In this document: positions 10,766 through 10,867 of the stretch, piece by piece
Layout: the number at the start of each line of letters is the position of its first letter
Position numbering within the stretch: position 1 is the stretch's first letter
Assembly (NCBI GenBank): GCA_001769215.1
Contig: MEOL01000033.1
Coordinates: 1-64,000 of the forward strand
Source: Bacteroidetes bacterium GWF2_41_31
Lineage (GTDB): Bacteria; Bacteroidota; Bacteroidia; Bacteroidales; F082
Direction of reading: 5' to 3'
DNA: 64,000 nucleotides
Translations under genes and position numbers: made by a program
Notes under the pieces: generated by a model
Told to the model about the DNA's origin: nothing
Database searches by the model: none
What the model saw: the letters and a program-made list of their open reading frames with translations, nothing else

Positions 10766-10867
10766 TCATTTTTTTTGTTTCTTGTAAAATCCCCCTGCAT
10801 CAGCAAATGGATCCCCCGTTGGCCTTGTCAGCCATTCATAGTCGATAGTTTCAAAATTCTGTTTCAT
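10766..10867 (-). CDS. 33-residue microprotein with [11 protein letters not shown] motif
   Basis: This ORF is too short for the supplied track. It opens with ATG at 10867, encodes 33 residues including [19 protein letters not shown], and stops three bases before the cas5 ATG, which suggests translational coupling. The G-D-P-F-A-D-A-G stretch resembles, from memory, the N-terminal signature of Cst1-type Cas8 large subunits. Here it stands alone, with the presumed Cas8 body beyond cas5. It could be a detached N-terminal piece of the large subunit, a remnant of a replaced cas8, or a new small subunit. The tail is basic (KKQKK). Confidence 0.6.

Follow-up and report, generated by a model that had tools for sequence, protein, structure and literature searches.

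A type I-B cas8b remnant beside cas6 in a Bacteroidales type I-PGING CRISPR-Cas locus

Effector modules have been described as being exchanged in situ near 'attractor' genes such as cas6 and the adaptation genes, which stay in place (PMC6452270). The usual evidence for such shuffling near cas6 is discordance between trees, together with counts of co-occurrence. The locus described here resembles this pattern, in that its cas6 and its effector genes differ in ancestry and effectors of another subtype appear to have been swapped in; it differs in that a stub of the vanished cas8b still marks the junction, at the same place in several loci. By curated cut-offs, the functional effector of the locus is a full member of type I-PGING (Cas5p, Csp2, Csp1). 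However, in the type I-PGING loci L003, L004, L021 and L022 (Porphyromonas gulae) cas5p follows a cas6 gene directly, with no stub. The stub is related instead to type I-B Cas8b (PADLOC PDLC01387; Cst2/Cas5t-type cassettes), whose N-terminus is encoded by codons 1-27, but its 33 codons retain about 6% of a protein of ~470 aa, too little for any large subunit. A limited search of the open-access literature found no descriptions of such stubs. Effector exchange beside cas6 is already known; the addition here is that its junction recurs and is legible, at the opening codons of cas8b.

The window, meaning the whole 64,000-nucleotide stretch that was analysed (contig MEOL01000033.1 of Bacteroidetes bacterium GWF2_41_31), carries a minus-strand cas operon in the order cas6, HU-HIG gene, short ORF, cas5p, cas8/csp2, cas7/csp1, cas3, REP-type transposase, orf196, cas4, cas1, cas2 and CRISPR array (Table 1). 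Cas5p, Csp2 and Csp1 score 271.8, 691.1 and 553.8 bits against curated cut-offs of 100, 461.75 and 340.65, respectively, and by these cut-offs the window effector is a full type I-PGING member. The small protein gene orf196 adjoins cas4, and homologues are found at the same end of cas8b loci (L062, L066 and L067) and of the I-PGING locus L014, so that orf196 is a possible member of the adaptation module. HU-HIG genes lie between cas6 and the effector cassette once in the window and twice in L012 (4896-5285 and 5565-5954). Genes for REP-type tyrosine transposases recur in these cas operons (the window, L063, L064, L070, L014 and L015), in many cases placed between cas6 and cas8. A palindrome, CCTGACAGG...CCTGTCAGG, is found just 5' of the stub; the window positions of these elements are 4630-5214, 4985-5011 and 10885-10911. 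The transposases and the palindrome may be involved in shuffling. Farther along the window, at 20546-21634, lies a histidine-kinase/response-regulator gene in which a 63-bp unit (EKRAAELIIANKELAFQNKEK) is repeated in tandem ~17 times; the repeats probably encode a coiled-coil linker.

Table 1. Features of the cas operon in the window, listed from the cas6 end.
Feature	Coordinates	Strand	Evidence or remark
cas6	11454..12278	-	TIGR01877; likely start ATG at 12278, ORF opens at 12332; nearest is L063 cas6 (53%)
HU-HIG DNA-binding protein gene, between cas6 and stub	11014..11427	-	PF18291, E = 1.3e-35
33-codon short ORF (stub)	10766..10867	-	codons 1-27 derived from type I-B cas8b; last 6 codons (YKKQKK) are junction sequence
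cas5p, first gene of the putatively incoming I-PGING cassette	10040..10762	-	TIGR03488, E = 4.6e-81
cas8/csp2, complete, 513 aa, I-PGING effector	8502..10043	-	TIGR03487 positions 1-482 of 483, E = 7e-208
cas7/csp1	7561..8478	-	TIGR03489, E = 8.5e-167; cas7 tree
cas3 of the I-PGING cassette	5313..7586	-	80-84% to close I-PGING loci, <30% to cas8b loci
orf196, small protein at the adaptation end	4037..4627	-	best homologue in cas8b locus L062 (55%); also in I-PGING L014
cas4	3404..3919	-	TIGR00372
cas1	2403..3407	-	type I-B family model TIGR03641, E = 1.1e-132
cas2	2010..2273	-	57% over 87 aa to the small ORF right after cas1 in L074; position and similarity

An earlier note on this DNA had reported the short ORF as a cas microgene ending three bases before the cas5 ATG, and its place proved exact to the base on the minus strand, with three bases between its stop and the cas5 ATG at 10762. 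A longer version of its peptide is encoded 5' of cas5 in a related I-PGING locus (L019), and we used this version as a query against 393 genomes of the order. The matches, with E-values down to 2e-19, came from 11 genomes and fell on the starts of open reading frames 459-514 codons long. These frames are intact cas8b genes (~470 aa), followed by cas7, cas5 and cas3; cas6 lies upstream in 8 of the 11 loci, and the other three end or differ on the cas6 side. The large protein was identified as Cas8b in PADLOC for all three cst-type proteins examined, which were spread over the set, and for a fourth (L068). In the locus with the closest intact N-terminus (L064), the homologue matched PADLOC Cas8b PDLC01387 with E = 1.3e-27 and had no NCBIfam match at E <= 0.1, while its cas7 and cas5 belong to the type I-B families Cst2/DevR and Cas5t. 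The stub is identical to the L064 N-terminus at 24 of 26 residues, after which the two diverge. By sequence comparison, then, the first 26-27 codons of the stub are the N-terminus of a type I-B Cas8b, unlike the effector now present. The motif had been read in the earlier note as marking the N-terminus of Cst1-type Cas8. Its assignment to the N-terminus of a Cas8b-type large subunit stands, and TIGR01908 hits begin with the related TGNPFVDAG, but Cst1 (TIGR01908, CXXC-CXXC) was rejected as the donor family: the intact L064 homologue does not match its model, and the short motif alone is common to the two.

We evaluated the match against the rest of the window and of the genome. Aligned with the intact Cas8b N-terminus, the stub scores 125.7 and the next-best ATG on either strand of the 64-kb window 23.2; no shuffle of the cas6-cas5 interval scored as high as the stub (p = 1/501). 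Searching the window's 4.5-Mb genome with the L019 version recovered the stub with E = 5.6e-12, and no second match to the stub peptide was found elsewhere in that genome. The stub peptide had no match in NCBIfam, Pfam, PADLOC or PDB sequences, an unsurprising outcome at this length, and tblastn against plasmids gave one chance match only (E = 2).

Intervals up to the next effector gene (or second cas6) were then scored against the 27-codon Cas8b start. The scored length was 27 codons in the window, 27 in L019 (39 by tblastn), 26 in L071, 23 in L072 and 14 in L016, with shorter stubs in L015 (~11 matching codons), L014 (11) and L012 (7, weak). The p-values of these intervals ranged from 0.002, the floor of 1/501, to 0.01, and the statistics of the short stubs are modest (L012, p = 0.01; L014, p = 0.004; L015, p = 0.002). 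The other testable intervals had no stub (p from 0.08 to 0.99), and family searches around genomes G608 and G421 and a class-wide search yielded no further ones. In all, stubs of 7-39 codons were recovered from seven further loci; the close I-PGING loci are without the peptide. In L071 invariant residues have been lost (SCPKGDPFANTCG); this loss and the varying stub length are as expected of remnants, not of a conserved peptide.

Some of these loci are rearranged. L014 (3539-5088) and L071 (8605-10232) have two consecutive cas6 genes with the stub between them, one cas6 of the cas8b-locus type and one of the short type seen in Porphyromonas gulae. The L071 contig ends past the second cas6, and its genome (G505) is without cas5p and without Cst2. 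In L019 the stub occurs twice, as a 39-codon copy (5307-5492) and a 10-codon copy overlapping cas5 (5957-6010), with a 128-aa ORF of no assigned family between them (5544-5930), which may reflect inserted DNA or another round of exchange at this site. The Cas8/Csp2 of L019 (6741-8273) has an N-terminal part diverged from the window protein and is nearly identical to it after about residue 330, with cas5 60% and cas7 92% identical between the two loci; this comparison suggests a mosaic protein and recombination inside cas8.

The genes on the two sides of the window stub differ in ancestry. In the cas6 tree the window pairs with L063, an intact cas8b locus, with 96/91 support (53% identity), in conflict with the cas7 tree, where it groups with I-PGING, and with the cas3 identities. 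Other stub loci pair with other intact loci in the cas6 tree (L019 with L065, L072 with L064), and the well-supported branches of that tree require the stub label to change at least four times. The cas6 genes of L016 and L072 are 63% and 71% identical, respectively, to that of L064, and the incoming effector of L072 is a Csh-like type I-B cassette, not I-PGING. We found no separate Cst2-type cas7 in the window's genome and, in the window locus, no trace of the old cassette's other genes beyond ordinary cas3 homology.

Together, the cas8b-derived N-terminus, the complete resident Cas8, the conflicting ancestries and the recurrence in other loci support the earlier suggestion of a scar of a cas8 exchange. 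We consider it very probable that the stub is the 5' end of a type I-B cas8b, left after replacement of the effector cassette beside cas6. For the direction of this replacement, and for the recombination step itself, we infer the following course. The ancestral order would have been cas6, cas8b, cas7, cas5 and cas3, then the adaptation genes. Recombination within or just past the first cas8b codons would have exchanged the old effector genes for an I-PGING cassette (cas5p, csp2, csp1 and cas3), and the beginning of the old cas8b, translation-initiation region included, would have been kept as the 33-codon ORF whose stop now abuts cas5. Among the data examined there is no strain pair from before and after the replacement.

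A scar by origin may still be a translated leader. The start region would have been kept for efficient initiation, and ribosomes would terminate on the short ORF where cas5 begins and initiate again at that site. Such a role does not conflict with the scar explanation, to which it would add a present function, and we regard it as possible, at a tentative level. In five of the eight stub loci the distance from the stop to the next start is at most 13 nt in either direction (+3 in the window and L072, +6 in L016, and -13 in L012 and in the second copy of L019). However, the stubs of L014, L015 and L071 end 34-104 nt from the next start, in both overlaps the stop comes from conserved cas5 codons, and a stop near the gene is expected anyway if the breakpoint lies near it. 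No decay is visible in the window stub, which fits a recent truncation and a retained function equally; for a selection test of the dN/dS type, synonymous sites are saturated and the time spent in an intact gene is inseparable from the time since truncation.

The polarity could also be the reverse, with an I-PGING locus having gained a foreign front end, that is, cas6 and the cas8b start. The sequence contains a junction and not a direction, and the effectors of six stub loci fall almost into a single clade of the cas7 tree, with the cas6 genes of these loci dispersed over the cas6 tree, as such a gain would allow. We nevertheless judge this course unlikely: the best matches of orf196 and cas1 are in cas8b loci (although the sampling of adaptation genes from I-PGING loci is thin), a second kind of effector stands at the same point in L072, and in the described pattern cas6 and the adaptation genes stay while effectors are shuffled (PMC6452270).

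The earlier note had also proposed a split large subunit, the peptide being the detached N-terminal piece of a working Cas8 in this Cascade. The peptide does derive from a Cas8 N-terminus and lies in the same operon as the resident cas8. However, the 513-aa Cas8/Csp2 is itself full length against its family model and aligns end to end with motif-free homologues, at up to 92% identity, which the note had named as the result that would speak against the split. The structure model of Csp2 has its own confident N-terminal helix (residues 6-19), and no profile similarity is detectable between the Csp2 and Cas8b families. In the Cas8b model the motif runs into a helix at residues 20-35, and the stub ends ~7 residues inside it. 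The best structural matches were a chain of type I-A Cascade for the Csp2 model and type I-C Cascade for the Cas8b model, both with high Foldseek probability and TM-scores so low that they back the general large-subunit assignment only. The I-PGING loci L013, L017, L018, L020-L023 and L025 lack the peptide (the L022 interval is too short for it), and the loss of invariant residues in L071 also argues against a subunit. We therefore reject the split, which is very improbable, and the scar explanation works without giving the peptide a role in the Cascade complex. Coincidence of the motif with a chance ORF, in a stretch overlapped by 168 ORFs of at least 20 aa, is practically excluded by the score gap, the genome-wide E-value and the presence of stubs at the corresponding operon position in seven more loci.

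We conclude that the feature is an evolutionary scar rather than a subunit of Cascade, and it cautions against taking every short Cas8-like ORF within a cas operon for a subunit. A stub legible at the level of codons marks both the site of the junction and the identity of the lost effector, and provides a simple marker for counting swaps. More speculatively, the first cas8b codons might be a preferred landing point for effector cassettes in Bacteroidales; the retained start would then serve as a translated leader from which a new cassette is expressed at once, hence the repeated installation of unrelated effectors, of the I-PGING and Csh types, behind one and the same stub, a proposal that we put forward as doubtful.
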